Source: Pycnococcus provasolii (lineage: Eukaryota; Chlorophyta; Pseudoscourfieldiophyceae; Pseudoscourfieldiales; Pycnococcaceae). From it: a stretch of 64,000 nt of DNA. Positions 21,901 to 39,924 of this stretch are shown piece by piece; positions within the stretch are counted from its first letter, which is position 1; each line of letters starts with the position of its first letter. The position numbers and the translations under genes were made by a program. The notes beneath the pieces were generated by a model. The model did not search any database, was not told the origin of the DNA, and was given only the letters and a program-made list of their open reading frames with translations. The stretch spans positions 434,001 to 498,000 of the forward strand of contig OW568868.1 of assembly GCA_938743325.2 (NCBI GenBank), in the 5' to 3' direction.

Positions 21901-23027
21901 GCTTGACGTCAAATCCAGTACATGGCGGAGGAAGCGGTAGCATTTCATCCGGCAGGTATCGTCTAGCAGCTTGCCGTGCACTGGGTCCGAGTGCAATCTT
22001 CGTCTTCGCTCGCATCGATGTAGCGCGCTTCGTTGGAGAAGTGGAAACTTGTGCCGTGCCTTGTGGTGGACCGGGCGGGATGATGGCCAACAAGGGTGGC
22101 GTGGCGTGCCGTTTGACGCTGTACAGGAGAAGCATTGTTTTCGTCAACTCACACCTGGCTGCTCATCAGGACAAGGTGGCTGAGCGTAATGCGCATTATG
22201 AGCGCATTGCATCGCAGATGCACTTCCACGGTACCCCGCAATTTGAGTCACAATCCAGCGATGTTGGCGATCCTTTTACGTCAGAAGCACCAGCTCTTCA
22301 GAATCTCGACGGAGGGGCCATGTGGCTTGGTGACTTCAACTACCGCGTCAATCATGACTACGATCGTGCTCGTGAACTCGCCATTAAAGGTTCGCTGGAC
22401 GAGCTCTTAAGCCGCGAGCAGCTTGCTATGGAGATGCAGAAGGGCTCAGCATTTCGTGGCTTCACGGAAGGTCCAGTCAGATTTCGCCCGACGTTTAAGT
22501 TCGACTCTTGCACGTACAAGGAGAAGAAGGGCAAGGGCGATAACTCAGAGGGCCCTACGGTGCGCGCCCATCGCACTAGCACTGTGTCTTCTACCGGGTC
22601 GAGTCGATGGGACATAGAGGACGATCCAAGCGACGCAAATGGAAACGAAAAGGATCCACTCGTTTACGATTTGTCCGAGAAAAGACGAGTCCCAAGCTGG
22701 TGCGATCGTGTGCTCTTTCGCGGGGCGATACCTGAAAAATCGCCGACGTCTTCAGAGCGCGGCGCAAGCGCCGCGGTTACTGGCAGCGTTGCTGAATGGG
22801 TTCAATTTGGAGTGGAAGATTCCAAGGTGAATCGCGACTCGTCAGCTAAAACTCTCTCGGAGACTGTGCAAGGCTCGCCTGTGGTCGAAGTATATGACGG
22901 ACTGACTGAAATTTGCCAATCTGATCATAAACCTGTGCTCTGTGTTCTGAATTATACCATAGAAAGTGACTCTACTAGGGAACGATTCGCTGCCTGGTAC
23001 GATGAAATTGTGAAATCGCGCCGATGA
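18930..23027 (+). CDS. 5PTase/FRA3-like: EH-like domain, WD40 repeats and inositol polyphosphate 5-phosphatase
   Basis: The protein has 1,365 residues from the ATG at 18930; the upstream extension has a TTG start. Residues 1-95 resemble an EH domain (FAALLRSTGLPPVSLARIWD, then VTREQVAVALQMVAACQAGM). Residues 100-400 are Pro/Ser/Ala-rich. WD40-like repeats follow (about 440-860: SVCIDSREGFLWTGHDDGVV, VTAWH, SSSGTLRRWGTRTF, DSLWVGTSAGRVRVYN). The catalytic IPPc domain (869-1345) has FCGTWNVNERKPS, FGLQEIEMS, FVNSHLAAH, WLGDFNYRVNHDYDRA, PSWCDRVLF and SDHKPV, so all key motifs are kept. Known plant 5PTase12-14 (FRA3) combine WD40 and IPPc and dephosphorylate inositol phosphates and phosphoinositides. 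The EH-like N-terminus would suggest endocytic recruitment. Confidence 0.9.
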   Translation: MSAPWLTASYLSEVLRSCGAVVMGGGGGVACVSSASFAALLRSTGLPPVSLARIWDAMLAHQSANTPHASASSDVVTREQVAVALQMVAACQAGMVLPGLLPPPHSSPIPPPTWTQQQASPVSTPTPTPTPQYVLPIAASPPQSQSPTKTPADPFAELAALSSPPKPQHASPPMTSMKVANLQQQLGQMHVGAASYVAPTAPIATPASNSFLSAEVLAAGEAAASAAVPARRTSNSDVPPQSCSFVEAAQSHVGANDAPLLDLGGLDTLDWNARNDSQPTATAIAHTAPPPYSPAAASPTSSSAAASLSSPSFLPSSFSTAPTPQTTPAHGAVLSPAGATSTTTATTRVDLEPLSALLRLSPMLPSHAINPKNAAAPPTMKLAYAGNGALFAFPPGHGGGTAAIHAVARSWPRLSELASSPPARVEAACSDDGDMAPSSLVQGSLGRSMAMVTSVCIDSREGFLWTGHDDGVVTAWHMGGTKPVPSAQTRVHNSRVTALCICHGVPGGGVYDQTYLVTGSSSGTLRRWGTRTFISTFAQSFGKLQLDASASTELQPTVHAEIRHAVHSGCDGDRCIAWFAGEFSISCWDVSRCRLLLKFGAASGPGADLSSPDAAWQAADGANDDAYFDGADEIAVGSSAGQSRGFAGALAQKIARSKLGKYAARGARGAMSSAVSGIAAVARATGAGSEMAGAAQAHQANLRARMRKRVAALCSGGKGGSTWIVYEGAYASLVGCDGRAILNTDDGPAGITHNDDHPMAGGALFQCACFVPGSGRQPDSLWVGTSAGRVRVYNASTGSLCTILIDGVGSGVIRSMACGPDVVAGLSSSGAVRVWGQQIVLNATRAAALRQALCTSPAVPFRARHTCRIFCGTWNVNERKPSLEHIVAWLRGGYTPNAALAAQPAYDLAVFGLQEIEMSTSTVAAASLMESVGGVATAPAEDEARGFARADALFPDVNSLGAVAQWWANQLREGLNAYTKAMNTSPGQSSSLTSNPVHGGGSGSISSGRYRLAACRALGPSAIFVFARIDVARFVGEVETCAVPCGGPGGMMANKGGVACRLTLYRRSIVFVNSHLAAHQDKVAERNAHYERIASQMHFHGTPQFESQSSDVGDPFTSEAPALQNLDGGAMWLGDFNYRVNHDYDRARELAIKGSLDELLSREQLAMEMQKGSAFRGFTEGPVRFRPTFKFDSCTYKEKKGKGDNSEGPTVRAHRTSTVSSTGSSRWDIEDDPSDANGNEKDPLVYDLSEKRRVPSWCDRVLFRGAIPEKSPTSSERGASAAVTGSVAEWVQFGVEDSKVNRDSSAKTLSETVQGSPVVEVYDGLTEICQSDHKPVLCVLNYTIESDSTRERFAAWYDEIVKSRR

Positions 23028-23125: not shown

Positions 23126-26100
23126 TTATGGAGACCAAGGTGGTCTTGTAGCCGTTGCCTCGACAGCACGTGCAAGTGCATAGATTGTGTTATGTCGCTC
23201 CATCTCATGAGATGTAGCCGTCGATGTGGTCGGTAAGGATGTTGACGATGCTGGTGGCGCATTTGAGCTCGAGGGAAAAGCGGCTGACTGAGGTTGCAAC
23301 TCTCGCACTCCGCACTCCGCACTCGACATCACAGAAGTAGATGCTACGAATGGCACCGAGGACGCCCTCGTGCAAAGGATCCAATCGCTATGTTTTTTCC
23401 TTGTTGACACCGCCGCGCGCGCCAAAATCGCATCCACTTGTGCCTCTAGCTGCCCCGGAAATGCCTCACTTGTTGACGTTGCATTGGCAGCCGCGCTTAC
23501 TCCTTGAACAGCCGCATGTCCGCTTCCCATACGTGCAGAATCGAGACTTTCTCGACGCACGCGCTCAAGCTCTCGCTCGTAGAAATCAGATCGAAATTTT
23601 TCGTGCGTCAACGCCTCGCGAAGCTGCTCCGCTACGGTCTGAAGCTCCTTATTCGCCCGCTTGAGTTGTCCGTCGTCGGTGCTACGAAGATCGTGCAGAA
23701 GCACCTCCAGGGCATGGCGACGTGCGGCTTCCTTGTCGAGCTGCGCACGCAGCTCGTTCACTATTGTTTGGTTCTCTTCGCTTGGAAGTTTGTTATGGTC
23801 TTCAAGCATCTTTCTCTTTGTCTCTGAGTCAGCAAGAAGAGCTTCCATTCTCGTTCGATAGTCCAAAGCCTGGCTGCAAAACTTATCAAATTGTGTCTTC
23901 ACAGCGTCCAATTCCTGTCGAAGACGTGCTTCAGCTTCGTGATCAATGCTTTCCATGCGTGATTCAAGATTCGTTCGCGTCTCGTTCAGGCGAATAACAA
24001 TATTTTGGTAAGACTGCCTGAGACGAGACACCGCACCTTCCAGCGAAGTGCTCTCAAACAGGACACAAGTTGTTTGCGTTCGAATTGAACTATTCTCGTT
24101 CAGTTCTTGCCTGAGCTCATTCCCACGTTCAATCAGCTTCTTCTTCAGCTGAGAAATTTCTAAATTCGCGTTTGCCAAATCAAACTCCAAATGACCGCGC
24201 TCCTCCGCCTGCAGGGCGGCGTGTGCTTCGGCCTGCATTGCCATCTGATCATGCAGACGTGCCTCCGATGACTCGAGTGCATGCACACGGCCGCGCGCCT
24301 CTTCGCATGCGGCACGAACACGTCTCGCATCAGCCTCTACACATCTCTTCGACTCTAGCTGCCTTGAAGAGCGCTCCAGCTCCGCGCGCGTACTCGCGAG
24401 CTCGCTCTCTAGACGACCGCGCTCCTCAGCATGCATGCTCTCCAGCGACGCAGACTCAGCCGCACGACGCGACTCCTCCTCCGCCGCGCGCTCCGCCAGA
24501 GAACGTGCCATCGAAGACGCTACGTCCGCAACCTGCTTCTGCAGAGACTCGCGCTCGCGCCTCCAGCGCGCCTCGCTCGCAGACGCCTGCTCCTCAAGAC
24601 GAGACACGTTCGCGCCGCCCTCTGAGCGCTCGCGCGACAACGCCTCCTCCAGCGACGCGCGCTCCGTCGCCGCTGACGCCTCCAGCACGCGCAGACGCTC
24701 GCTCAGATCCGCCTGCTCCTTCGCCTTCTCAGACGCGAGCGCCTGAGCACGAGCCACCGCCGCATCCATCTCGCCGCGACGACGCTCCATCGAAGCCTGT
24801 GCCGCCGCGCGACGCATCGCACTCGCCGCGCTCAGCGCCGACGCGCGTCGCTTGTGTCGCCTCGTCTCCGCCTGCAGGGCGGTGTGTGCTTCGGCCTGCA
24901 TTGCCATCTGCTCATGCAGACGTGCCTCCGATGACTCGAGTGCATGCACACGGCCGCGCGCCTCTTCGCATGCGGCACGAGTCTCGGTCGCGTCACGCTC
25001 GAGTCGCTCCAGCTCCGCGCGCGTACTCGCGAGCTCGCTCTCTAGACGACCGCGCTCCTCAGCATGCATGCTCTCCAGCGACGCAGACTCAGCCGCACGA
25101 CGCGACTCCTCCTCCGCCGCGCGCTCCGCCAGAGAACGTGCCATCGAAGACGCTACGTCCGCAACCTGCTTCTGCAGAGACTCGCGCTCGCGCCTCCAGC
25201 GCGCCTCGCTCGCAGACGCCTGCTCCTCAAGACGAGACACGTTCGCGCCGCCCTCTGAGCGCTCGCGCGACAACGCCTCCTCCAGCGACGCGCGCTCCGT
25301 CGCCGCTGACGCCTCCAGCACGCGCAGACGCTCGCTCAGATCCGCCTGCTCCTTCGCCTTCTCAGACGCGAGCGCCTGAGCACGACCCACCGCCGCATCC
25401 ATCTCGCCGCGACGACGCTCCATCGAAGCCTGTGCCGCCGCGCGACGCATCGCGCTCGCCGCGCTCAGCGCCACCGAGCGTCGTTTGAAACACTTCGCCA
25501 AGATATCTAGAGCAGCATACTCTCGAGTCTTTACTGCCAAATCGTCACGTAGCTTCGCATTTGACGCTTCCAGATCCTTGATCCGCCCTGAGTCAACCGA
25601 GGCAGCTGCTGGAACGGCGATATGATCTGCGTCACTTTGCATGCCCACATCCTTTGAAGGCGTCGCTTCAATCTGCATGCCAACATTTTTCGTGGGCGTC
25701 ATGTCCATCTGCATGCCAACATTTTTCGTGGGCGCGACGTCCATCTGCATGCCGACATTTTTCGTGGGGGTCACGTCCATCTGCATGCCCGCGTCCTTCG
25801 TAGGCGTCGCCTCCATCTGCATGCCTGTGTCCTTCGTAGGCGTGCGCTCGACGACGTTGTCGCTCTGCATGCCCGCATCCTTCGTAGGCGTGCGCTCGAC
25901 GACGTTGTCGCTCTGCATGCCCGCGTCCTTCGTAGGCGTGCGCTCGACGACGTTGTCGCTCTGCATGCCTGTGTCCTTCGTAGGCGTGCGCTCGACGACG
26001 TTGTCGCTCTGCATGCCCGCATCCTTCGTAGGCGTGCGCTCGACGACGTTGTCGCTCTGCATGCCCGCATCCTTCGTAGGCGTGCGCTCGACGACGTTGT

Positions 26101-29100
26101 CGCTCTGCATGCCTGTGTCCTTCGTAGGCGTGCGCTCGACGACGTTGTCGCTCTGCATGCCCGCATCCTTCGTGGGCGTGCGCTCGACGACGTTGTCGAT
26201 CTGTATGCCTGTGTCCTTCGATGGCGTTTCGGGGGGCGATCTCGACTCCTCTTTTGACAGCGAATCAAGCTGCTTGCTCGCACTCGATAACTGACGATCC
26301 AGCGCGTGAGCACGTCCTCGCGTCTCGGCTAGGTCATTTTCGATGCTTGCTAGCTTCGCCGTCTTGCCTTGCACATCAGACACAAGCCGGGCCCGAGCCA
26401 CATTTGCCTTATCGAGTTCAGATGCGTGCAAGCTCGCCTCGGCACGTGCTTCAGCAATGCTCGTACGAGCCGCTTGAAGCTCGCATTCCAGCTCCTGCGC
26501 CTTGTCTTGAGCATCGCTCAACTCATCTTGCACGACAAGCATTTCATCCGTGATTTTCGCGTATGCCAGGTTAGCATGCTCAAGACGCGACTCATGCTGA
26601 CCAATTTCAACACGTGCCGCCTGAAGTTCATCCTCGTACACACGTAAAGTCTCACTCAGTTCGATCACTTTCTGTTGCGCCTTATCGGCGCTTTCAAGCT
26701 TTATGCGCACACGAGAAAGCTCGTCGCGCTCAAGTGATAAGTGCTGAGACGTCTCTCGCTCCCGATGCTCCGACGAAGCAATCTTGGCTTTCAGGTCTGA
26801 CACTAAATCCGTATACTCCCGCACTCGATCTTCACTTGCCTTCGCTTTCGCCATCAATTCTGCAAGGTAGCTAGCGTTTTCGCTCGAGTTTGACTGAGTG
26901 CGTTCCAAATCACGCTCAAGTCGCTCCAGCTCCGCGCGCGTACACGCGAGCTCGCTCTCTAGACGACCGCGCTCCTCAGCATGCATGCTCTCCAGCGACG
27001 CAGACTCAGCCGCACGACGCGACTCCTCCTCCGCCGCGCGCTCCGCCAGAGAACGTGCCATCGAAGACGCTACGTCCGCAACCTGCTTCTGCAGAGACTC
27101 GCGCTCGCGCCTCCAGCGCGCCTCGCTCGCAGACGCCTGCTCCTCAAGACGAGACACGTTCGCGCCGCCCTGTGAGCGCTCGCGCGACAACGCCTCCTCC
27201 AGCGACGCGCGCTCCGTCGCCGCTGACGCCTCCAGCACGCGCAGACGCTCGCTCAGATCCGCCTGCTCCTTCGCCTTCTCAGACGCGAGCGCCTGAGCAC
27301 GAGCCACCGCCGCATCCATCTCGCCGCGACGACGCTCCATCGAAGCCTGTGCCGCCGCGCGACGCATCGCGCTCGCCGCGCTCAGCGCCGACGCGCGTCG
27401 CTTGTGTCGCCTCGTCTCCGCCTGCAGGGCGGCGTGTGCTTCGGCCTGCATTGCCATCTGCTCATGCAGACGTGCCTCCGATGACTCGAGTGCATGCACA
27501 CGGCCGCGCGCCTCTTCGCATACTGCACGAGTCTCGGTCGCGTCACGCTCGAGTCGCTCCAGCTCCGCGCGCGTACTCGCGAGCTCGCTCTCTAGACGAC
27601 CGCGCTCCTCAGCATGCATGCTCTCCAGCGACGCAGACTCAGCCGCACGACGCGACTCCTCCTCCGCCGCGCGCTCCGCCAGAGAACGTGCCATCGAAGA
27701 CGCTACGTCCGCAACCTGCTTCTGCAGAGACTCGCGCTCGCGCCTCCAGCGCGCCTCGCTCGCAGACGCCTGCTCCTCAAGACGAGACACGTTCGCGCCG
27801 CCCTCTGAGCGCTCGCGCGACAACGCCTCTTCCAGCGACGCGCGCTCCGTCGCCGCTGACGCCTCCAGCACACGCAGACGCTCGCTCAGATCCGCCTGCT
27901 CCTTCGCCTTCTCAGACGCGAGCGCCTGAGCACGAGCCACCGCCGCATCCATCTCGCCGCGACGACGCTCCATCGAAGCCTGTGCCGCCGCACGACGCAG
28001 TGTTGATGCTGCGGTAAGAGCGACAATGCGACGTTTGTACGATTTGATTTCTTGTGAAGGCTTGTCATATTGCTGCTGTTGATGTTGCTTAAGATACTGC
28101 ACTTCCTGGACGAGGGAAATAATATCGCCTTCGAGTCGAGCCTTTGATCTCTCTTGCTGTTCTTCCGCGTAACGAATCGATTCTTTAAGAAATTCGATCT
28201 CATCAAGCGCGAGGGAATGAATCTGTTCGAACTCGTGAATCCTAGTCTCACGATCACCAATTTGCTGATGCAGATCTTGAATTTGTTTGACGAGAAACCT
28301 ATTCTCTTCCGACAGCTTCGAGGTTCGATCGCGATCTATGCTAGATTGTTGCAACAAATGTTGCTTGCAATGAATGATTTCCAAATCCATACGCCGTATA
28401 TCATCCGTGGCAGCTGCTAGTTCGCTCTCTAGACGACCGCGCTCCTCAGCATGCATGCTCTCCAGCGACGCAGACTCGGCCAAACGCTTCGAATCTTCAG
28501 CTGCAGCATGTGCAACTTCATTGTTCGCAATGTCGAGAGCAGATGTCGCCTCACTCAGGTCATGCACAAGAACTTCTCTCTCTTTCCTCCATTGCGCCTC
28601 GCTCGCAGACGCCTGCTCCTCAAGACGAGACACGTTCGCGCCGCCCTCTGAGCGCTCGCGCGACAAAGCCTCCTCCAGCGACGCGCGCTCCGTCGCCGCT
28701 GACGCCTCCAGCACGCGCAGACGCTCGCTCAGATCCGCCTGCTCCTTCGCCTTCTCAGACGCGAGCGCCTGAGCACGAGCCACCGCCGCATCCATCTCGC
28801 CGCGACGACGCTCCATCGAAGCCTGTGCCGCCGCGCGACGCATCGCGCTCGCCGCGCTCAGCGCCGACGCGCGTCGCTTGTGTCGCCTCGTCTCCGCCTG
28901 CAGGGCGGCGTGTGCTTCGGCCTGCATTGCCATCTGCTCATGCAGACGTGCCTCCGATGACTCGAGTGCATGCACACGGCCGCGCGCCTCTTCGCATGCG
29001 GCACGAACACGTCTCGCATCAGCCTCCACACATCTCTTCGACTCTAGCTGCCTTGAAGAGCGCTCCAGCTCCGCGCGCGTACTCGCGAGCTCGCTCTCTA

Positions 29101-32100
29101 GACGACCGCGCTCCTCAGCATGCATGCTCTCCAGCGACGCAGACTCGGCCGCACGACGCGACTCCTCCTCCGCCGCGCGCTCCGCCAGAGAACGTGCCAT
29201 CGAAGACGCTACGTCCGCAACCTGCTTCTGCAGAGACTCGCGCTCGCGCCTCCAGCGCGCCTCGCTCGCAGACGCCTGCTCCTCAAGACGAGACACGTTC
29301 GCGCCGCCCTGTGAGCGCTCGCGCGACAAAGCCTCCTCCAGCGACGCGCGCTCCGTCGCCGCTGACGCCTCCAGCACGCGCAGACGCTCGCTCAGATCCG
29401 CCTGCTCCTTCGCCTTCTCAGACGCGAGCGCCTGAGCACGAGCCACCGCCGCATCCATCTCGCCGCGACGACGCTCCATCGAAGCCTGTGCCGCCGCGCG
29501 ACGCATCGCGCTCGCCGCGCTCAGCGCCACCGAGCGTCGTTTGAAACACTTCGCCAAGATATCTAGAGCAGCATACTCTCGAGTCTTTACTGCGAAATCG
29601 TCACGTAGCTTCGCATTTGACGCTTCCAGATCCTTGATCCGCCCTGAGTCAACCGAGGCAGCTGCTGGAACGGCGATATGATCTGCGTCACTTTGCATGC
29701 CCACATCCTTTGAAGGCGTCGCTTCAATCTGCATGCCAACATTTTTCGTGGGCGTCATGTCCATCTGCATGCCAACATTTTTCGTGGGCGCGACGTCCAT
29801 CTGCATGCCGACATTTTTCGTGGGGGTCACGTCCATCTGCATGCCCGCGTCCTTCGTAGGCGTCGCCTCCATCTGCATGCCTGTGTCCTTCGTAGGCGTG
29901 CGCTCGACGACGTTGTCGCTCTGCATGCCCGCGTCCTTCGTAGGCGTGCGCTCGACGACGTTGTCGCTCTGCATGCCCGCATCCTTCGTAGGCGTGCGCT
30001 CGACGACGTTGTCGCTCTGCATGCCTGTGTCCTTCGTAGGCGTGCGCTCGACGACGTTGTCGCTCTGCATGCCCGCATCCTTCGTAGGCGTGCGCTCGAC
30101 GACGTTGTCGCTCTGCATGCCCGCATCCTTCGTAGGCGTCGCCTCCATCTGCATGCCTGTGTCCTTCGTAGGCGTGCGCTCGACGACGTTGTCGCTCTGC
30201 ATGCCCGTGTCCTTCGTGGGCGTGCGCTCGACGACGTTGTCGCTCTGCATGCCTGTGTCCTTCGTAGGCGTGCGCTCGACGACGTTGTCGCTCTGCATGC
30301 CCGCATCCTTCGTAGGCGTGCGCTCGACGACGTTGTCGCTCTGCATGCCTGTGTCCTTCGTAGGCGTCACCTCCATCTGCATGCCCGCGTCCTTCGTAGG
30401 CGTGCGCTCGACGACGTTGTCGCTCTGCATGCCCGCATCCTTCGTAGGCGTCGCCTCCATCTGCATGCCCGCGTCCTTCGTAGGCGTCGCCTCCATCTGC
30501 ATGCCTGTGTCCTTCGTAGGCGTGCGCTCGACGACGTTGTCGCTCTGCATGCCCGCGTCCTTCGTAGGCGTGCGCTCGACGACGTTGTCGCTCTGCATGC
30601 CTGTGTCCTTCGTAGGCGTGCGCTCGACGACGTTGTCGCTCTGCATGCCCGCATCCTTCGTAGGCGTGCGCTCGACGACGTTGTCGCTCTGCATGCCCGC
30701 ATCCTTCGTGGGCGTGCGCTCGACGACGTTGTCGATCTGCATGCCCGCATCCTTCGATGGCGTTTCGGGGGGCGATCTCGACTCCTCTTTTGACAGCGAA
30801 TCAAGCTGCTTGCTCGCACTCGATAACTGACGATCCAGCGCGTGAGCACGTCCTCGCGTCTCGGCTAGGTCATTTTCGATGCTTGCTAGCTTCGCCGTCT
30901 TGCCTTGCACATCAGACACAAGCCGGGCCCGAGCCACATTTGCCTTATCGAGTTCAGATGCGTGCAAGCTCGCCTCGGCACGTGCTTCAGCAATGCTCGT
31001 ACGAGCCGCTTGAAGCTCGCATTCCAGCTCCTGCGCCTTGTCTTGAGCATCGCTCAACTCATCTTGCACGACAAGCATTTCATCCGTGATTTTCGCGTAT
31101 GCCAGGTTAGCATGCTCAAGATTCGACTCATGCTGACCAATTTCAACACGTGCCGCCTGAAGTTCATCCTGGCACATACTCAGCTCCTCGGTCAAACGAG
31201 ACACATTTTCCCTAGCCTCGTTTAAGACTGGATTCTCAGATGCCCCATCTTCACGTCTCTTTGACGCCTCTACGGAAGCTTCGAGCCGAGTTACGTATGA
31301 CTCAGTGGCAGCCTGCGCAGCTTTCAAATCCGAAAGCTCTGTGCGCACACGAGAAAGCTCGTCGCGCTCAAGTGATAAGTGCTGAGACGTCTCTCGCTCC
31401 CGATGCTCCGACGAAGCAATCTTGGCTTTCAGGTCTGACACTAAATCCGTATACTCCCGCACTCGATCTTCACTTGCCTTCGCTTTCGCCATCAATTCTG
31501 CAAGGTAGCTAGCGTTTTCGCTCGAGTTTGACTGAGTGCGTTCCAAATCACGCTCAAGTCGCTCCAGCTCCGCGCGCGTACACGCGAGCTCGCTCTCTAG
31601 ACGACCGCGCTCCTCAGCATGCATGCTCTCCAGCGACGCAGACTCAGCCGCACGACGCGACTCCTCCTCCGCCGCGCGCTCCGCCAGAGAACGTGCCATC
31701 GAAGACGCTACGTCCGCAACCTGCTTCTGCAGAGACTCGCGCTCGCGCCTCCAGCGCGCCTCGCTCGCAGACGCCTGCTCCTCAAGACGAGACACGTTCG
31801 CGCCGCCCTGTGAGCGCTCGCGCGACAACGCCTCCTCCAGCGACGCGCGCTCCGTCGCCGCTGACGCCTCCAGCACGCGCAGACGCTCGCTCAGATCCGC
31901 CTGCTCCTTCGCCTTCTCAGACGCGAGCGCCTGAGCACGAGCCACCGCCGCATCCATCTCGCCGCGACGACGCTCCATCGAAGCCTGTGCCGCCGCGCGA
32001 CGCATCGCGCTCGCCGCGCTCAGCGCCGACGCGCGTCGCTTGTGTCGCCTCGTCTCCGCCTGCAGGGCGGCGTGTGCTTCGGCCTGCATTGCCATTTGTT

Positions 32101-35100
32101 CTCGCAAGCTCATATTGGATGCTACTAGAGTATCGAGTTGGGTTGATTTCGAAGAAGTCTCATCGCCGGATCGAGTGGCGCGGTACATTTGCAATTGAGC
32201 AGTTTCGTTGCTAAGGTGAGCGGCAGCGGCAGCGGCTTCGCTGGCTTGACGTGATGCCCATGCAGCATCAGCTTCAATTTTCAGGAGATCCTCTTGTGCA
32301 ACGGCCCGTCGTCGATTGAGTTCGTCCAAATCGGAACGTGCGATCACATTAGCTTCAAGAGTCTCCTGTAATTCGATTTCAGCCTGTGTGATGCATTCAA
32401 TGAGAATTTCCTGTGGCGATTTTGGTTCAGATGGCTCCTGAGGTCTTGCTGTTGCATCACCCATTGGTCCATCAGTCTGCATGTTCGAGTCAGTAGGCTC
32501 GCTTGACGGCTGTGCTGAATCCTTCACATCGACCCGCTGTCTCTGTGGCAACCACGTGTTATGCGCACCGGCTGTCAGAGAACGTAGTGAGACATCGGAT
32601 GCCGATCTCCCCAATGGACTAAGACTTCTGTTTGATCGCTTTGCTGTCGTTTGTGAATATTCGAGGTGTATTTCTGCAGAAGGCGCATCGCCGTCCCACG
32701 TGCTTGAGTCATTATCCTCGACATTTGAGCGACCGCTCAGATCTTCAACGCTTTTTGCAATAGCGCCTGAGTCGTGCAAAGTGCTGCGCCCTACAGTCGC
32801 CTCACGTTCAGTGCCGAATAGCACGACAGCCTCGTCCAGCGTACCAACAATCGCTTCATGTCGTTCGCGTAGCACCTCAAGGCTCGCCTCCCTTGTAGCC
32901 ACCTCGTCATCAATGCGGCGTATCACCTGCATTCCAGCCTGCAATTTTTCGTCAAGCTTAAGGGTTCGCTCGTAGTAAGATCGGAATTTCGCACGTGCAT
33001 CAGTGAGCGATGCCTGCTCTTCCTCTCGCTGTTGACGGGTTTTGTCGTACTCCTCGACGGCGTTCTCTAACGCTGCTCGAAGCTCTTTGAGCCGTTCCGC
33101 GCTTCGTGTCTCAGCTTCACGAGCAGATGATAGGGCTGCAGAAATGCGCGAGAGCTCCGCTCGCTCATCCAGTTGATTCTCAGATTCTGTATTAGAACTT
33201 ACCGGTTGGTCCTGCGGAGAATGAAATGGGTGCTGTGGGAGAGATGAAGTCTCTGTTCCAACGGAAACAAGGATCGGCGAAGTCTTCGCGCTTGTCCCCG
33301 TAGAGACCATCCTCCTTCTTATTGTCTGTGTCTGACCACACGCAAAGCGCGGGTTCCTTGTGCCGGTCGCCTGACTTCGTGTGGATTTATGTACAGTCTG
33401 ACTTTCCGCATTCATCGTGGCAGAAATGCTGCTGTCTGTACTCGTCGATGCCTCGACAATGCTTGCGTCAAATTCTGTCTGCGTCTCCTGCTCCTGTCCA
33501 TCCAGAGACAGCTCGAACGAATGTTCCGTCTGCATTGAGCAGTCCACTGCTTCTGATCTGCAAACCTCCTCCGACGCAGCTTCCTCCGCCCACGACTCGA
33601 GATAGCCTAAAAACGTGTTTCGAAGGCTGTCCCGAGTCGCCTCGTCCGAGAGATTCGCGCCATGCTCAAGAGCTGAAGTCTGACAAGTAGCATCTCGCAT
33701 TGCAACGGGTATTTCGTCAGTGCACATTCCAATCGATCGCCACTGTGGGGTTGGTGAGGATTCCAGAATTGGCAACTCATTTTTCGCACTGGAATCCGGC
33801 ATTGAAACAGATTCGCCCTTTCTCAGTTTCCTCTCAACCATGAGGCGCTGCTCCTGACTGTCGAGAATGGCTCGTAGCACCTTGTGGTGTACACTCGCGC
33901 GATCCAAGTCTTCGGGCTCCAGTGAAGGGCTGTGTGAAGTCGCTTCCATTGCCGTAACGAGTTCGTGTGCACTATCGCGCATCAGAACTTGGTGGTGGCC
34001 TGATTCTGTGTCCAGCTGCACATGTTGCACAGTCAGATGCGTCACAGGAACTACCGCAGGAACAGAGAGCCCACTTCTCGTTTGTTGAAAGTCCTGGCGC
34101 ATTTGTACTGCCTCTTCACGTATCTTTGGGCTGATGCTTTCGAGACTCTCGTTAGCCTTCACCAAAGTCTGACGTCCACGAATTGTTTGCGCAATCGCTT
34201 CCGCGTTTCCCGTGTACTGCTTGAAAGGTGACGTCGCCGCATCGGCCAAGGTCGCCTTGATCTGCGAGTTTGCTGATTTGTTGGGTGACGTACCATGCTC
34301 GGTCACATGGAGGCTCACTTGTACGTTGGCTTCTTCGGCAAATTCCTCAGACAAGCTCAAGACAACCTTGCACTCAAACGACGATGCATTGTCAGATTTT
34401 CCCTGCTCTTCTTCGTCATCTGCAATGTCACCAAGGCGCCATGCGGGTGGGGATGGACCGTGTGCGTGACGTGAAGTGGCGGTTTCATCGGAACCATCGC
34501 GGGGCACAGTTGCGGCAAGGTGCGTGGGTGGGTGCTGGCGCATCGCAGAGACTGTCGCAAACTCCTGTACAGGAGTAGGTTCATCAATGCTCAGCTCCGA
34601 TGCATCATCCAGTGGTGCGTATGCAAGCACATCTGTCGGCATCAGGGGCACGTCGACGGAAGCAGCAGGTGGAGGCGTCGGAAATTCCGGTGCCTCGTTT
34701 AATTCTCGACGCAGTTCCGCAAGCTCGAGACTCTGAGCGTTCGTAAGCGGGACGTAATAATACTGCAGCTCGTTCTCTGCCGCCTCAGCTCTCTCCAACT
34801 CGCGCGACGCGACAGTATTTGCATCCTCAACCTCGGTAAATGCTAGCTGTAGCCTGCTTTCCAGCTCGGCGATGCGATCAGCCGCCTCAGATGCCGCAGA
34901 ATCGGCTTCCGCTTGGGCATCGGCTGCAGCGGCCGCGTCTGCAGCACGAGCAGCGCGCAGGTTTTGCACCTCAAGATGCATAAGTCGCATTGCCTCGTGC
35001 GCCTGTTCCAATTCGTACTCTTCATCACTTGACGGCGTTTTGGTTTTTGGGCTATCGATCAGCTGAGGCATTTGCCTTGCAAGCCGCAGCTCTGCAAGCT

Positions 35101-36628
35101 CACGCTCGAACTCATCAAGCTGGCGATGCAGCTGTCCTCGCGTTTGCCGCTCCGTCGCGAGCTGCATCTCGAGTTTCTGTGTCTGCGACTTGGCTTCCTC
35201 GACGCGAAGCTCAAGCGCACGATTCTTTTCGACAAGCATGCTATTCGTAGAAAGCGTATCTAATAGCTGCTGCGATATCGTAGCCAGCTCAGCTTTTGCA
35301 TCCTCCGCTTCCGCCCGCGCGACGTCGCGCTCGGATCTGTACGTGTGGAGCAAGACGACGCCTGCACCGTCATCATCATCGTTCTCATCGCCAGTCGACG
35401 GAAGTGTAGGTCGGAATCGACGCACCGCCTCACGCCTTCGTGCGATAGTCACGGATGCTCCGTTGAGTATGTCCAAACTCGGCACGAGCGCTACGGCAAG
35501 GTCGAGCACAAAGTTGCTATCTCGCACCACCGGATTTCCCTCAATATTGAGCACGGCGAGCGTTCGCCCCAGCGCGCCCAGAGCATCGACGCTACTTGGC
35601 ACCGCGATGCAGTTGTTCGCGACGCGGAGTACGCGGAGAGGCGGTGGAAGTGTTGCTGCGGATTTCGCCGCTTGTGCGCTGACGAACGTGGGCACGTTCT
35701 TGAGCAGATTACCGGAAACGTCGAGTTCCTCGAGGTTCTTCAATCCGTCGAGGCCGTACAGGTGCACGACGCGGTTGTTCGCCAGGCTGAGCGTTCGTAG
35801 CGTGTGCGGAAGCAGCGCATCGAGCCGCTGCGTGATGCGTTGGATGGCGTGCCCTCCTAGGTCGAGCGAGCGCAGTTTAGGTGCAAGCTCCGTCAGTCGC
35901 TCGAGGATATGTAGTTGTGCGCCTCTCAGGGGGTCTGAGCACCGTGCGTCGACGTCGATGACTGCTGTTTTGTTTGCGCTGGACGGCACACCCGCCCACC
36001 GCCTGATGTTCGCCTCTGTCCAGTGCAAGGTCGCACGACGTGTCTGTCCTTCTTTGTGTTGTTTGCTTGAAGACGGCAGTGTCTGCTTCTGCTTTTGCCT
36101 TTGTGTATCGACGTCGGCGAGCGGCTTTCTTCTGTGGCTTGCATGCGGCGGCCTTGCATGCTCGGAGGCGGTTGGCGTACTCGTCTCCTGCTCCTCTGTA
36201 GTCTCCGTGTTGTTACATGTAAGGTTCTGGTACTCGTACGGGCGGCTGGCCGACGAAGGCTGCGACGACGTTCCTGTGTAAGATAACCTTGAGGAGCTTC
36301 TTAACGCGTCTTCTTCAAGGTGAAGATTCTGAGAATCAAACTCCCCAGTTCGCTCATCAAGTCCGGCCACCACCAAGTGGGTAACCCTCTCAACAGGCTC
36401 AAGAAACACCTCATCATCAAGCAAATCAAGCTCAAAAGGAGGCGCAGACTCAATATCACACACAGACTGCAACAAAGACTGCTCCACAGACTGCAACAAA
36501 GACACAGACAAAGAGGACAAGGAGGAAGGTCCACCACCACCCTCACCCTCACCCTCCTCACCCTCACCACCGGACATGGAGGACCACCACTCGTGAGGCT
36601 CACCATCACTCCGATGGGCGTGCGCCAT
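23126..36628 (-). CDS. Giant LRR and coiled-coil scaffold protein with two tandem motif arrays
   Basis: This single open frame of 4,500 residues starts at the ATG at 36628. Residues 1-220 are disordered, with an acidic Gly/Glu/Ser run. LRRs of the SDS22/LRRcap kind span about 222-402 (LRSLDLGGHAIQRI, LRTLSLANNRVVHLYGLDGL, LEELDVSGNLLKNVP). Then come long coiled coils. Residues 1020-1135 contain several QT motifs (SMQTEH, ETQTEF, GQTQTI). Two arrays of a 12-16 residue repeat lie near 1954-2313 and 3466-3665, separated and flanked by seven copies of a ~160-residue Ala/Glu/Arg heptad module (AMRRAAAQASMERRRGEMDA). The LRR-plus-coiled-coil plan resembles centrosomal/basal-body proteins such as LRRCC1; no orthology is claimed. 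The near-identical repeats make the assembled length uncertain. Confidence 0.88.
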   Translation of the reverse strand: MAHAHRSDGEPHEWWSSMSGGEGEEGEGEGGGGPSSLSSLSVSLLQSVEQSLLQSVCDIESAPPFELDLLDDEVFLEPVERVTHLVVAGLDERTGEFDSQNLHLEEDALRSSSRLSYTGTSSQPSSASRPYEYQNLTCNNTETTEEQETSTPTASEHARPPHASHRRKPLADVDTQRQKQKQTLPSSSKQHKEGQTRRATLHWTEANIRRWAGVPSSANKTAVIDVDARCSDPLRGAQLHILERLTELAPKLRSLDLGGHAIQRITQRLDALLPHTLRTLSLANNRVVHLYGLDGLKNLEELDVSGNLLKNVPTFVSAQAAKSAATLPPPLRVLRVANNCIAVPSSVDALGALGRTLAVLNIEGNPVVRDSNFVLDLAVALVPSLDILNGASVTIARRREAVRRFRPTLPSTGDENDDDDGAGVVLLHTYRSERDVARAEAEDAKAELATISQQLLDTLSTNSMLVEKNRALELRVEEAKSQTQKLEMQLATERQTRGQLHRQLDEFERELAELRLARQMPQLIDSPKTKTPSSDEEYELEQAHEAMRLMHLEVQNLRAARAADAAAAADAQAEADSAASEAADRIAELESRLQLAFTEVEDANTVASRELERAEAAENELQYYYVPLTNAQSLELAELRRELNEAPEFPTPPPAASVDVPLMPTDVLAYAPLDDASELSIDEPTPVQEFATVSAMRQHPPTHLAATVPRDGSDETATSRHAHGPSPPAWRLGDIADDEEEQGKSDNASSFECKVVLSLSEEFAEEANVQVSLHVTEHGTSPNKSANSQIKATLADAATSPFKQYTGNAEAIAQTIRGRQTLVKANESLESISPKIREEAVQMRQDFQQTRSGLSVPAVVPVTHLTVQHVQLDTESGHHQVLMRDSAHELVTAMEATSHSPSLEPEDLDRASVHHKVLRAILDSQEQRLMVERKLRKGESVSMPDSSAKNELPILESSPTPQWRSIGMCTDEIPVAMRDATCQTSALEHGANLSDEATRDSLRNTFLGYLESWAEEAASEEVCRSEAVDCSMQTEHSFELSLDGQEQETQTEFDASIVEASTSTDSSISATMNAESQTVHKSTRSQATGTRNPRFACGQTQTIRRRMVSTGTSAKTSPILVSVGTETSSLPQHPFHSPQDQPVSSNTESENQLDERAELSRISAALSSAREAETRSAERLKELRAALENAVEEYDKTRQQREEEQASLTDARAKFRSYYERTLKLDEKLQAGMQVIRRIDDEVATREASLEVLRERHEAIVGTLDEAVVLFGTEREATVGRSTLHDSGAIAKSVEDLSGRSNVEDNDSSTWDGDAPSAEIHLEYSQTTAKRSNRSLSPLGRSASDVSLRSLTAGAHNTWLPQRQRVDVKDSAQPSSEPTDSNMQTDGPMGDATARPQEPSEPKSPQEILIECITQAEIELQETLEANVIARSDLDELNRRRAVAQEDLLKIEADAAWASRQASEAAAAAAHLSNETAQLQMYRATRSGDETSSKSTQLDTLVASNMSLREQMAMQAEAHAALQAETRRHKRRASALSAASAMRRAAAQASMERRRGEMDAAVARAQALASEKAKEQADLSERLRVLEASAATERASLEEALSRERSQGGANVSRLEEQASASEARWRRERESLQKQVADVASSMARSLAERAAEEESRRAAESASLESMHAEERGRLESELACTRAELERLERDLERTQSNSSENASYLAELMAKAKASEDRVREYTDLVSDLKAKIASSEHRERETSQHLSLERDELSRVRTELSDLKAAQAATESYVTRLEASVEASKRREDGASENPVLNEARENVSRLTEELSMCQDELQAARVEIGQHESNLEHANLAYAKITDEMLVVQDELSDAQDKAQELECELQAARTSIAEARAEASLHASELDKANVARARLVSDVQGKTAKLASIENDLAETRGRAHALDRQLSSASKQLDSLSKEESRSPPETPSKDAGMQIDNVVERTPTKDAGMQSDNVVERTPTKDAGMQSDNVVERTPTKDTGMQSDNVVERTPTKDAGMQSDNVVERTPTKDTGMQMEATPTKDAGMQMEATPTKDAGMQSDNVVERTPTKDAGMQMEVTPTKDTGMQSDNVVERTPTKDAGMQSDNVVERTPTKDTGMQSDNVVERTPTKDTGMQSDNVVERTPTKDTGMQMEATPTKDAGMQSDNVVERTPTKDAGMQSDNVVERTPTKDTGMQSDNVVERTPTKDAGMQSDNVVERTPTKDAGMQSDNVVERTPTKDTGMQMEATPTKDAGMQMDVTPTKNVGMQMDVAPTKNVGMQMDMTPTKNVGMQIEATPSKDVGMQSDADHIAVPAAASVDSGRIKDLEASNAKLRDDFAVKTREYAALDILAKCFKRRSVALSAASAMRRAAAQASMERRRGEMDAAVARAQALASEKAKEQADLSERLRVLEASAATERASLEEALSRERSQGGANVSRLEEQASASEARWRRERESLQKQVADVASSMARSLAERAAEEESRRAAESASLESMHAEERGRLESELASTRAELERSSRQLESKRCVEADARRVRAACEEARGRVHALESSEARLHEQMAMQAEAHAALQAETRRHKRRASALSAASAMRRAAAQASMERRRGEMDAAVARAQALASEKAKEQADLSERLRVLEASAATERASLEEALSRERSEGGANVSRLEEQASASEAQWRKEREVLVHDLSEATSALDIANNEVAHAAAEDSKRLAESASLESMHAEERGRLESELAAATDDIRRMDLEIIHCKQHLLQQSSIDRDRTSKLSEENRFLVKQIQDLHQQIGDRETRIHEFEQIHSLALDEIEFLKESIRYAEEQQERSKARLEGDIISLVQEVQYLKQHQQQQYDKPSQEIKSYKRRIVALTAASTLRRAAAQASMERRRGEMDAAVARAQALASEKAKEQADLSERLRVLEASAATERASLEEALSRERSEGGANVSRLEEQASASEARWRRERESLQKQVADVASSMARSLAERAAEEESRRAAESASLESMHAEERGRLESELASTRAELERLERDATETRAVCEEARGRVHALESSEARLHEQMAMQAEAHAALQAETRRHKRRASALSAASAMRRAAAQASMERRRGEMDAAVARAQALASEKAKEQADLSERLRVLEASAATERASLEEALSRERSQGGANVSRLEEQASASEARWRRERESLQKQVADVASSMARSLAERAAEEESRRAAESASLESMHAEERGRLESELACTRAELERLERDLERTQSNSSENASYLAELMAKAKASEDRVREYTDLVSDLKAKIASSEHRERETSQHLSLERDELSRVRIKLESADKAQQKVIELSETLRVYEDELQAARVEIGQHESRLEHANLAYAKITDEMLVVQDELSDAQDKAQELECELQAARTSIAEARAEASLHASELDKANVARARLVSDVQGKTAKLASIENDLAETRGRAHALDRQLSSASKQLDSLSKEESRSPPETPSKDTGIQIDNVVERTPTKDAGMQSDNVVERTPTKDTGMQSDNVVERTPTKDAGMQSDNVVERTPTKDAGMQSDNVVERTPTKDTGMQSDNVVERTPTKDAGMQSDNVVERTPTKDAGMQSDNVVERTPTKDTGMQMEATPTKDAGMQMDVTPTKNVGMQMDVAPTKNVGMQMDMTPTKNVGMQIEATPSKDVGMQSDADHIAVPAAASVDSGRIKDLEASNAKLRDDLAVKTREYAALDILAKCFKRRSVALSAASAMRRAAAQASMERRRGEMDAAVGRAQALASEKAKEQADLSERLRVLEASAATERASLEEALSRERSEGGANVSRLEEQASASEARWRRERESLQKQVADVASSMARSLAERAAEEESRRAAESASLESMHAEERGRLESELASTRAELERLERDATETRAACEEARGRVHALESSEARLHEQMAMQAEAHTALQAETRRHKRRASALSAASAMRRAAAQASMERRRGEMDAAVARAQALASEKAKEQADLSERLRVLEASAATERASLEEALSRERSEGGANVSRLEEQASASEARWRRERESLQKQVADVASSMARSLAERAAEEESRRAAESASLESMHAEERGRLESELASTRAELERSSRQLESKRCVEADARRVRAACEEARGRVHALESSEARLHDQMAMQAEAHAALQAEERGHLEFDLANANLEISQLKKKLIERGNELRQELNENSSIRTQTTCVLFESTSLEGAVSRLRQSYQNIVIRLNETRTNLESRMESIDHEAEARLRQELDAVKTQFDKFCSQALDYRTRMEALLADSETKRKMLEDHNKLPSEENQTIVNELRAQLDKEAARRHALEVLLHDLRSTDDGQLKRANKELQTVAEQLREALTHEKFRSDFYERELERVRRESLDSARMGSGHAAVQGVSAAANATSTSEAFPGQLEAQVDAILARAAVSTRKKHSDWILCTRASSVPFVASTSVMSSAECGVRELQPQSAAFPSSSNAPPASSTSLPTTSTATSHEMERHNTIYALARAVEATATRPPWSP
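25632..26229 (-). repeat. Tandem array B: 14 coding repeats of TPTKDxGMQ type
   Basis: Fourteen coding units, mostly 48 bp (ERTPTKDAGMQSDNVV) with some 36-bp units (TPTKDTGMQMEA), lie within the giant coiled-coil gene. The first unit in protein order is KDTGIQID; the last five diverge (KNVGMQMD three variants, KDVGMQSD). The third-base pattern is nearly identical between units, indicating recent expansion or homogenisation. Confidence 0.95.
29688..30765 (-). repeat. Tandem array A: 25 coding repeats of TPTKDxGMQ type
   Basis: Twenty-five units of the same 48/36-bp repeat lie in the giant coiled-coil gene. KDAGMQ and KDTGMQ units are interleaved with SD, ME and MD endings. The final six units match array B in order and sequence, so the arrays share an origin by segmental duplication and then differed in copy number (25 against 14). 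Confidence 0.95.
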
Positions 36629-37226: not shown

Positions 37227-37303
37227 GGTGCCTGATGAGAAATGGCCAGATTATAGGCCAAAATCGCTGTTTTTGGCCAGATTATAGGTTTTTCCTAACC
37301 CTA
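37227..37303. repeat. Left target-site duplication and terminal inverted repeat of the MULE
   Basis: The 10-bp GGTGCCTGAT (37227-37236) is followed by the 67-bp TIR (37237-37303), identical in inverted orientation to 40203-40269. Confidence 0.95.
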
Positions 37304-37538
37304 GACCTAACCCTAACCCTAATCCCTAACCCTACACCCTAATCCCTAACCCTACACCCTAATCCCTAAAACCTATAACTTCCGCCCTATCCCCGTTGTC
37401 AAGGGTTGTCCGCTGGGTTCGGATTTAGTCCGTTAACGCCAAAATCGCAATTTGTGTCACCGATCTTGAATGCACATACACGTGGCATGAAAATGAGTCT
37501 TTTTTTTGCGTTGCTTGGTGTCTTTTAAGTCCTAGTAG

Positions 37539-37776: not shown

Positions 37777-39924
37777 CTACGCGTGTTGCTTCCCCTTGCC
37801 CTTCTTATCGTTCAGCTCCATCGCACCTTTCATGCGCTTGTGCTTCGAAGAAGGTCCCTTCTTCTTCTTCAAGTCGCGTCGCGGCGGCGGTGTGATCTTC
37901 CCGTCTGCTTCGTCCGGCTTCAAGCCAAGCACGTCGCCGTCAATCGACGGCGCGCATACGATGCATGTTGACACGGCTGCAACCGCATTTATGCGCTGGT
38001 GGTATGCCTTCACATGCAGCGTAGCGAAATCAGCGTAGTCAAAGCCCTTCCCGCGATGCTTTGCTGCAGCAACTTGGTGCGGACACGGCACTCCGTACTG
38101 TGAGTAGATTCCGCACGCGCATTCGAGAGACGTCACGATGTCATCATCCACCGGCATCCGCACTGTCACGGTTTGGACGTCATCGACGACGAGGGCGGTC
38201 GTCGGAGAGGACCACGTGACCTTCAAATGCGCAGCATCTTGGAGGCTCTTCTCCAGCAAAGTCGTCGCACGGTCCAGCAAAATCGATGTCGTATCAGCGC
38301 TCACGCGCCTATGAAACTCAGCAAGCTGGTTGACGACACGGACGTGCGCCTCTTGAAAAAATCCAAGCGGCGGGAGGAAGCGTGCGCTCTTGCACGTCTT
38401 GCTCATGGCTGCGTTGATGCTCTCTGCGAACTGACTCGTCACCCTGCCGTGCAAGGCAACGCCTGCCTCGTTCGCCGCGAAGACAGAGTAACGGCATATG
38501 TCGAGTTTTGCCAAGTACGCGTGTGCAGCATGGCTGCTTGCCCGCAGGTTCTGCATTGCCTCGTCGTAGTCGTCGCGTGTAACCGCTTTCACCACAGCCC
38601 AGAATAGAAAGGCTCGGTGGCCAAGGCATGCTCTGTTGCCCTTCACAACCTTGTACAGATTCTGGAGCAAGTGCCATGCGCACCAAAAGCTGAATGCGTC
38701 AGGAAACACGGCCGCGAGTGCTGCTGCTAATCCTTTGTCCCTGTCGCTAAAGATCACTTTGTTCGCGAAGAATCTGGTCAATCCTGCGCGAGCGCAGTTC
38801 CTTAGGAACCACGTCCACGATGCGGTGCTCTCTGAAGGAACACATGCCCAAGCGAGGAGGAGGATCGTTCCCTCAGGCGTCATCACGGTGAGGGTGAGGT
38901 ACACGCCCTTGTAATAGCGGTGCTTCGAATGTGCACCGTCCAGCGCTCCTACCGGCAAGACTGCATCCGCGAGGCTGTCGGCGGGTACAGCGAAGAATGC
39001 CGAGTCGAACGTGCTCGTAGCTGGCAGGACGTTCATGTCGAACGTGGCCCCGGGCGTCGCTTCGGTCGCGAGGCGCCCCCAACGCTTGAAGGCGCTGAAG
39101 CTATCGTCGTACGCCTCGTCGAGCAGGTCGAGCACTATGTGCTTGGCGTTCATTATCGTGCGACGGGCCGGGACAACGACGTTCGGCCTATCCTCCGCAA
39201 CGTGCGACAGCAGGTCCGATGCACTTATTCCGCGGTTCTGTCTGACCTTACGCTCACAGAGTGCTGCGAGTTCTTTCGCCGTCAGGTTCTGCTGCCCCCC
39301 GCAGTTCACGTGAGGGGTAACCTTCACCAGCGTCCACGGATTGTGCACGTCGGCGCACTTCCGTTCCCGCGTTAAGGAGCTCCCGCCTGGACAGCCTTTG
39401 GACTTCCAAACAATCTTCTGTGCCTGATAGCTGCCTCGCTTCGCCCCAGCGCGTGCCTCCTTCGTCGCTGTCACGTCCACCGCGTCGCGGCATCTAAGCC
39501 TGATGGACGCGTTGTTTGAGCCAGGCACTTGGACAAGACTCTTTCCTGGATGAGCCTCCCTCGCGCCCCGGAGTGCGTCCTCGCGGGAGTCGAACGTGGT
39601 CCCAACAATGCTCACAATGCTTCCTGGCTTTGTGAGAAGAAGCCTTGTGCCTGCACTCGCACTCGCCGCACTCGCCGCACTCGCACTCGCACTCGCACTC
39701 GCCGCACTCGCACTCGCACTCGCCGCACTCGCACTCGCACTCGCACTCGCCGGAACCACCGCAAGCTCATGATCCTTCTCCTTCTCATCATCGGACCAAG
39801 ACCAATCGACATCATCAATCTCGTCGTCAATATCCTCCCCCTCATCATCCTTCTCAGGCACATCAAGTAGGTGAGCTCTTACCTCGCCGAACGCTTCCCA
39901 AAACGTCGAAAAGGTTCGGAGCAT
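37777..39924 (-). CDS. MULE transposase with SWIM zinc finger
   Basis: The protein has 715 residues from the ATG at 39924. The N-terminus is acidic with an Ala-Ser run (residues 58-92) encoded by a CACTCG/GCACTCGC simple repeat. The MULE DDE domain has ALDGAHSKHRYYKGVYLTLT (first acidic residue), FSDRDKGLAAAL (second) and WCAWHLLQNLYK (the conserved CxxH region of Mutator transposases). The SWIM zinc finger near residue 635 reads CACGIYSQYGVPCPHQVAA (CxC...CxH). The tail is Lys-rich and could be a nuclear localisation signal. It encodes cut-and-paste transposition. No frameshift is visible, so it may be active. Confidence 0.93.
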   Translation of the reverse strand: MLRTFSTFWEAFGEVRAHLLDVPEKDDEGEDIDDEIDDVDWSWSDDEKEKDHELAVVPASASASASAASASASAASASASASAASAASASAGTRLLLTKPGSIVSIVGTTFDSREDALRGAREAHPGKSLVQVPGSNNASIRLRCRDAVDVTATKEARAGAKRGSYQAQKIVWKSKGCPGGSSLTRERKCADVHNPWTLVKVTPHVNCGGQQNLTAKELAALCERKVRQNRGISASDLLSHVAEDRPNVVVPARRTIMNAKHIVLDLLDEAYDDSFSAFKRWGRLATEATPGATFDMNVLPATSTFDSAFFAVPADSLADAVLPVGALDGAHSKHRYYKGVYLTLTVMTPEGTILLLAWACVPSESTASWTWFLRNCARAGLTRFFANKVIFSDRDKGLAAALAAVFPDAFSFWCAWHLLQNLYKVVKGNRACLGHRAFLFWAVVKAVTRDDYDEAMQNLRASSHAAHAYLAKLDICRYSVFAANEAGVALHGRVTSQFAESINAAMSKTCKSARFLPPLGFFQEAHVRVVNQLAEFHRRVSADTTSILLDRATTLLEKSLQDAAHLKVTWSSPTTALVVDDVQTVTVRMPVDDDIVTSLECACGIYSQYGVPCPHQVAAAKHRGKGFDYADFATLHVKAYHQRINAVAAVSTCIVCAPSIDGDVLGLKPDEADGKITPPPRRDLKKKKGPSSKHKRMKGAMELNDKKGKGKQHA

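Follow-up and report, generated by a model that had tools for sequence, protein, structure and literature searches.

A giant intronless gene of Pycnococcus provasolii, a very small coccoid prasinophyte green alga of the sea, encodes a leucine-rich repeat (LRR) plus coiled-coil-like protein of 4500 residues, which is probably a client of the dynein light chain LC8 by way of a cluster of single-copy motifs whose LC8 likeness beyond shuffled sequence is supported. The gene (23126..36628, minus strand) lies in a 64,000-nucleotide stretch of contig OW568868.1 (the window, to which all coordinates refer) and consists of one open reading frame (ORF) of 4500 codons, with its start ATG at 36628, a stop that ends at 23126 and zero internal stops. 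Further along the chain, two arrays carry 39 repeat units in which a kinase-type site precedes a GMQ-like motif; LC8 binding by these units is plausible, but the motif scores make it doubtful in 37 or 38 cases out of 39. Our reading, held tentatively and somewhat short of even confidence, is that the giant LRR/coiled-coil scaffold is an LC8 client in which the arrays repeat the motif in weak or altered form, with possible tuning at their TPTK sites.

LC8 and the single-copy motifs

Nine LC8-like 8-mers lie within residues 964-1148 (33185..33739, minus strand), as judged by a matrix score and a shuffle test. Four have a central Q, namely QEQETQTE (score 16.2), VDCSMQTE (11.9), RDATCQTS (9.0) and ACGQTQTI (7.6, with poor flanks at -4.3), and the giant protein contains at least two motifs with a T/S/V/I-Q-T/V type anchor, which was our criterion for a multivalent LC8 client. 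At a score of at least 5, residues 950-1160 hold 9 sites (mean 1.38 and maximum 6 in 1000 shuffles); at least 7 is reached by 5 sites (shuffle mean 0.65, maximum 4) and at least 8.5 by 3 (shuffle mean 0.31, P 0.002), while the background ORFs described below show at most 3 sites per 200 residues at score 5. When Q is required at position 0, 4 sites are left (shuffle mean 0.95 and P 0.0085 at threshold 5; mean 0.47 and P 0.0015 at threshold 7), and a plain regular expression finds 4 matches in the cluster against a shuffle mean of 0.27, with 0 of 5000 shuffles reaching 4. Outside the cluster, TDSNMQTD (residues 1379-1386; 32471..32494, minus strand) scores 8.3 and SSKSTQLD (residues 1492-1499; 32132..32155, minus strand), just ahead of the first repeated block, scores 11.5. 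The pattern M[QC]T[DE], which is near the GMQ anchor of the arrays, occurs three times in residues 1-1900 (GMCTD, SMQTE and NMQTD) and 0 times in 39,828 background residues. A first-pass annotation of this DNA had listed SMQTE, ETQTE and QTQTI, which are present (residues 1031, 1048 and 1099), together with an NMQTD that lies at residue 1382 and not, as given there, near 1425. Weighing against client status are the five of the nine cluster 8-mers that lack the central Q (RSIGMCTD, VEASTSTD, RMVSTGTS, VSVGTETS and QPVSSNTE), the proline-free run of residues 975-1092, so that disorder of the cluster is not given, and the choice of this stretch, which was picked because the first-pass annotation pointed there. 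The cluster is the best evidence that the giant protein is an LC8 client, and it holds regardless of the repeats.

The scoring matrix was made here from 42 binder and 33 non-binder 8-mers, with a leave-one-out area under the receiver operating characteristic curve (AUC) of 0.79, using peptides printed in portions of six articles (PMC6607443, PMC12057147, PMC5746249, PMC5963919, PMC12797016, PMC3078936). The 42 binders are distinct 8-mers, 4 of them weak, and omit ASCIZ QT3, which binds too weakly as a peptide, as well as Pak1, the DKSTQTD consensus and duplicates; the non-binders are 33 of 43 listed rows, after BSN-shift, CRYBG1, DAZL, the second SCRN2, MUC5B-1, CUL3, MSTL1, OTOG and ZNF469 of Table 1 and ILK of Table 2 had been dropped. 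The accuracy printed for LC8Pred, 78%, is a different measure from the AUC of our own matrix. As background, 45 mechanical ORFs of at least 400 residues were taken from 200 kb (39,828 residues, which may include antisense frames). Binders have a median score of 13.5, non-binders of 7.8, and the 99.9th percentile of the background is 5.4. The positive control was the alga's own RSP3, a member of a family that a figure legend (PMC10046861) places among the multivalent partners of LC8, and its motifs RHMDVQTD and SDIAVQTD score 14.5 and 13.8.

The genome has four matches to the Dynein_light profile. One is an 89-residue LC8 that aligns over its full length with dynein light chain 1/DYNLL1 (7y8w_A; 178 bits, 79 of 89 residues identical) and, counted on the alignment, differs from it once after residue 42; judged by sequence, an LC8 with a conserved groove is thus encoded by the alga. 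A second LC8-like coding stretch (L003) is matched from profile position 19 and has in-frame stops upstream; perhaps its first exon lies elsewhere, or it is a partial copy. Another match (L004) is nearest to dynein light chain 10 (7kzm_P).

Array units and their LC8 scores

The 39 units follow the pattern [TA]P[TS]K[DN]xG[MI]Qx[DE] and, as the first-pass annotation had stated, form arrays of 25 and 14 within the intronless 4500-residue ORF. Array A (residues 1956-2314; 29687..30763, minus strand) has 25 units and is headed by KDAGMQID, and array B (residues 3468-3666; 25631..26227, minus strand) has 14 and is headed by KDTGIQID (residues 3471-3478; 26195..26218, minus strand). The latter was said to be one residue off the LC8 ligand of neuronal nitric oxide synthase (nNOS), and this holds against MKDTGIQVDRDL, the ligand as printed in PMC12797016. 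Units follow one another in steps of 16 residues (23 times) or 12 residues (14 times); NVVER follows 23 units, which are those with 16-residue steps. The consensus had been taken to begin with ERTPTKD, of which TPTK is found in 33 of 39 units and the preceding ER in only 23; TPSK occurs in 4 and APTK in 2, so that 37 units carry TPTK or TPSK and the exceptions number two rather than the single one reported. Numbered from the central Q, position -4 is D (33) or N (6), -3 is A (19), T (12) or V (8), and +1 is S (23), M (12) or I (4). Across the 32.3 Mb genome, a DNA pattern for KDxGMQ has 34 matches, of which 32 are inside the giant gene and two in ORFs that are, by eye, seemingly unrelated.

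The first-pass annotation saw an LC8-type motif in every unit, but when all 39 were scored the array B head alone passed. KDTGIQID scores 11.8 (9.5 with nNOS out of training), with 28 of the 42 binders above it, and 0.3% of shuffles of its literal 16 residues match the real score, compared with 0.9% for KDAGMQID. When five unit types were shuffled as circular units, 5-22% of shuffles reached the real score. Much of what remains speaks against LC8 binding by the arrays. KDAGMQID itself scores 7.3, under the non-binder median, and the other 37 units score 2.7-5.7, values that 4-15% of their literal 16-residue shuffles equal or exceed; all 38 units other than KDTGIQID are outscored by at least 39 of the 42 binders. 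The anchors of the 37 non-head units are MQS, MQM or MQI, which are present in none of the 42 binders, and neither M at -1 nor S or M at +1 occurs in any binder. The +1 position, which is buried in known LC8 complexes, is among the most variable of the array, and Asn at -1 and +1 of nNOS abolishes LC8 binding, according to passages of PMC12797016. WWC2 LDAGSQTS, with the same D-A-G flank as many units, binds LC8 weakly (32.7 uM), and the six KNV units have ordinary flanks, scoring 3.5-3.7 without nNOS in training, below the binder median for flanks.

The flanks of the other 33 units score 6.2-7.0 (5.1-5.7 in those unit types that were rescored without nNOS), compared with flank medians of 4.6 for binders and -1.6 for non-binders, and WWC3 CDAGSQTD, which shares the D-A-G-x-Q-x-D pattern of array units, binds LC8 with a Kd of 5.34 uM. 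The low array scores would weigh less if the algal LC8 accepts M at -1, because the single-copy motifs SMQTE, NMQTD and GMCTD share that M. The same three motifs, with M at -1, T at +1 and an acidic +2, tie the arrays to the LC8 type and so argue against a repeat that binds some other peptide-binding partner, an explanation which we consider very improbable; it gains from a conserved core that has no exact counterpart among the LC8 anchors of the binders, and no candidate partner was found, none having been sought.

Duplication, constraint and possible phosphorylation

Array B and its flanks are an internal duplicate of array A and its flanks; the feature is real and its origin ordinary. DNA self-comparison defines a first coil-array-coil block (residues 1510-2735; 28422..32101, minus strand), with the coil marker RRGEMDAAV at residues 1554, 2387 and 2608, and a second block that duplicates it (residues 3056-4075; 24402..27463, minus strand), with the marker at 3100, 3739 and 3950; a seventh copy of the marker lies between the two blocks at residue 2889. 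At the DNA level, residues 1510-1765 match 3056-3311 with 99.5% identity, 1817-2096 match 3329-3616 with 94.3%, and 2120-2735 match 3468-4075 with 93.7%. Many pairs of the seven coil segments are 98-99% identical across about 450-650 bp; the segment at residue 2608 stands further off, at 87-89% to several of the rest. The 15-bp linker of the arrays has the same sequence in 23 of 23 copies, and the 33-bp unit core has 14 distinct forms among 39. Because array B duplicates A and the linker is invariant, the 39 units represent a few events multiplied, rather than 39 independent draws. When a piece of array A was compared with the genome, 8 of 9 matches fell inside the giant ORF itself; the ninth (C38, 25% identity, 8 stops), considered as a paralogue, was taken for coiled-coil noise. 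An assembly artefact was also considered as the source of the arrays and is unlikely: the P. provasolii assembly is described in PMC11130579 with 444-fold HiFi coverage and a quality value of 58.2, and with such reads behind it arrays of about 1 kb should be assembled correctly. The genome compared here comprises 32.33 Mb in 46 contigs, and the CCAP190/2 assembly is given as 32.2 Mb in 44 chromosomes together with the genomes of mitochondrion and plastid (PMC11130579).

An identical linker and many near-identical coil copies point to rapid turnover in the middle of the gene, and together with the unequal array lengths (25 and 14) and with common-unit motif scores that barely exceed those of shuffled units, this favours another explanation: that LC8 binds the protein at the single-copy cluster, perhaps also at the array heads, whereas the other 37 units do not bind LC8 and have a different role, for example as a flexible spacer that slippage and unequal exchange lengthen or shorten. 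We regard this as rather unlikely, as the unit core looks constrained from its excess of synonymous changes. With each codon change counted once over the 39 cores, there are 12 synonymous and 10 nonsynonymous changes, whereas an unconstrained core should have 74-79% nonsynonymous (P 0.0005 to 0.004 over transition weights from 1 to 4); other tie-breaking gives 13 and 9, the P values being taken from 12 and 10. The 8-mer taken by itself gives P 0.0015-0.017. Across all 39 units, P, K, G and Q are invariant despite silent codon variation in P, K and Q, and the variable positions are -8 (T, A), -6 (T, S), -4 (D, N), -3 (A, T, V), -1 (M, I), +1 (S, M, I) and +2 (D, E). A synonymous excess of the same kind, though weaker, is seen among the coil copies (P 0.015-0.038), in a count that omits one diverging copy and has a ratio of 0.67 when it is included. 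All these statistics rest on parsimony counts within an array that homogenises, and should be taken as no more than indicative.

TP[TS]K, which satisfies the S/T-P-x-K/R consensus of cyclin-dependent kinases (CDKs), is present in 37 of 39 units, and TP.K is infrequent elsewhere, with 8 occurrences in 39,828 background residues and none in residues 1-1950. Since P and K are invariant, and the changes within TPxK are 5 synonymous and 2 nonsynonymous, the arrays might be multisite phosphorylation platforms for a CDK, in which TPTK is functional and GMQxD incidental or used for docking. This is markedly improbable in our view, since the TPxK part alone reaches P 0.023-0.033 on just 7 changes, the G-x-Q-x-[DE] part is conserved at least as well, consensus matches do not show phosphorylation, and S/T-P-x-K/R sites elsewhere, in residues 1-1950, stay near the background rate (2 sites, or 1.03 compared with 0.80 per 1000 residues). 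On the LC8 reading, cell-cycle tuning of the array by a CDK may occur, going by the consensus match only. The threonine of TPTK lies at -8, three residues ahead of each 8-mer and outside it, and phosphorylation at or near the anchor reduces LC8 binding according to a passage in a review (PMC12017986).

Scaffold model, cell context and neighbouring sequence

In the model of a giant LC8-binding scaffold, the N-terminal LRR would be followed by long helices that pair as coiled coils, and the interruptions between the helices would offer the LC8 dimer short motifs that bind as beta-strands. Binding would take place at the TQT/MQT cluster of single-copy motifs (about residues 964-1148) and at the array B head, the remaining units being weakened or altered versions of the motif spaced 4 or 8 residues apart. 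With two chains held parallel by their coils, LC8 dimers could occupy the motifs in register, and the flexible linkers would become rods, in the way reported for Nup159; proline-directed phosphorylation at TPTK may tune this occupancy. Several features accord with the multivalent LC8 scaffold proposed at first pass, namely the organism's LC8, the single-copy cluster, the array B head, the gaps, the low-confidence model of array A as non-helical between helices, and the constraint on the unit; the motif scores go against the claim for the arrays as a whole.

The gaps of 4 and 8 residues between array 8-mers would suit LC8 stacking by analogy with solved multivalent complexes, in which linkers of 3-9 residues are described (PMC12797016), and with ASCIZ, where linkers of 6 and 9 are reported without heterogeneous binding and a linker of 3 with it (PMC10046861), although these sources may place the ends of a motif one or two residues away from where they are placed here. 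A single-sequence AlphaFold model of the array A region (mean pLDDT, the predicted local distance difference test, 50.4) has one helix over residues 1818-1949, a non-helical array (pLDDT about 25-60) with low-confidence strands, and helix again from residue 2328. The LRRs (residues 250-313 by Pfam; 35690..35881, minus strand) are matched by LRR_4 (2e-06, 28.3 bits against a cut-off of 27; best stretch residues 276-313) and, under its cut-off, by LRR_8 (residues 250-309). At E 0.1, Pfam finds in the giant protein these repeats and one weak sub-cut-off match, and PDB matches to the LRR part are generic LRR; a single-sequence model of that part has a mean pLDDT of 54.7 and values below 50 over most of the LRRs. 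Proline-free stretches of at least 60 residues number 10 and total 2899 residues, with the two arrays situated among them; the two modelled pieces of the protein contain helices.

Known systems resemble the predicted scaffold in part. ASCIZ/ATMIN, with 11 verified LC8 sites in human and 7 in Drosophila, likewise has many LC8-type motifs of mixed strength, including a weak TMT site (QT3) that is bound beside a canonical one, according to portions of three articles (PMC5963919, PMC10046861, PMC12797016), but it is a zinc-finger transcription factor with unequal linkers, whereas the giant protein has helix-flanked uniform arrays of near-identical units with another anchor. The yeast nucleoporin Nup159 forms rigid stacked complexes on 5 LC8 sites, as described in PMC10046861, and shares the arrangement of sites in a row, with far fewer sites than the giant protein, for which a rod on LC8 binding is a prediction only. 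GKAP is a scaffold with non-canonical G-[IV]-Q-V-[DE] motifs, LSIGIQVD and QSVGVQVE, which bind well as a pair (Kd 0.29 uM, as printed in PMC12797016); it differs in having two sites, a 17-residue linker and V at +1, where the giant protein has S, M or I. VFL1/LRRCC1, described in PMC8983040 as centriole/basal-body LRR and coiled-coil proteins, offer an LRR followed by coiled coil in a green algal flagellar context, and are the obvious comparison by architecture. Nup159 is not known to have an LRR, and its motifs are TQT-like. To our knowledge, VFL1/LRRCC1 are much smaller than the giant protein and lack TPTK/GMQ arrays.

If every unit counted, one chain would carry about 50 LC8-type sites (39 units and 11 single-copy motifs), zipped into rods between coiled coils, and a CDK-type site at each array site would open or close the rod by cell cycle. 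This is distinctly unlikely; if true, it would exceed several times the 11 verified sites of human ASCIZ, and the algal LC8 would accept an M-Q-S/M anchor when sites are many. Arrays that bind LC8 would make this protein the most multivalent LC8 client known to us and a natural test of avidity rescuing weak anchors, weak motifs that need multivalency being a named problem for LC8 binding prediction in PMC12057147. Rod assembly and its regulation could then also be studied on a ready-made series of 25 and 14 units, with steps of 12 and 16 residues and a kinase-type site in 37 of the 39 units.

A basal-body role of the giant protein is possible by analogy, because it combines LRRs with helical, coiled-coil-like stretches in a genome that has flagellar genes. 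The dynein stalk domain has 19 genome matches, grouped as 16 loci, six of them in open frames of more than 4000 residues, and there are two SAS-6_N matches and one RSP3. Pseudoscourfieldia marina is a flagellate. Its 18S sequence is identical to that of Pycnococcus, as stated in PMC11130579, and Pycnococcus appears in PMC10495350 in a list of algae never reported with flagellate stages; the retained dynein, SAS-6, RSP3 and LC10-like genes fit a hidden flagellate stage in this coccoid alga, which is regarded as having lost its flagella. Even without array binding, the giant gene would be a candidate for a structural part of the flagellar apparatus or of a microtubule-organising centre in an alga so listed (PMC10495350) that nevertheless keeps dynein, SAS-6 and RSP3 genes. 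Counting against the LC8-scaffold reading, no protein homologue of residues 1-1500 was found at E 0.001 or better, either within the 4500-residue query (best 1421 word-sharing candidates scored) or within an 1800-residue piece (7984 candidates scored). Open-access literature on LC8 clients with tandem repeats, where the one match concerned mucins, or on Pycnococcus flagellar genes contained nothing on the giant protein among the matches listed. Flagellar-type loci kept in the genome include the LC10-like light chain (L004), L006, L007, L016-L019 and L040, along with RSP3 and its two good LC8 motifs.

The end of the giant ORF is separated by 98 bp from a convergent inositol polyphosphate 5-phosphatase-like ORF (18747-23027, plus strand), which is 99% identical to a P. 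provasolii protein and has another relative (P0002) at 59%. On the other side, a 715-residue ORF (37777-39924, minus strand) resembles a MULE-type transposase with a SWIM-like C-terminal part, its translation having been judged by eye. Internal telomere-type arrays (CCCTAA, GGGTTACT) occur in the window at 15146-15261, 37294-37369, 46250-46330, 59423-59589 and 60902-60987, none of them inside the giant ORF. Long open plus-strand frames, among them 24115-25488, run antisense to the repeated coils of the giant gene and are probably a by-product of GC-rich repetitive coding sequence.

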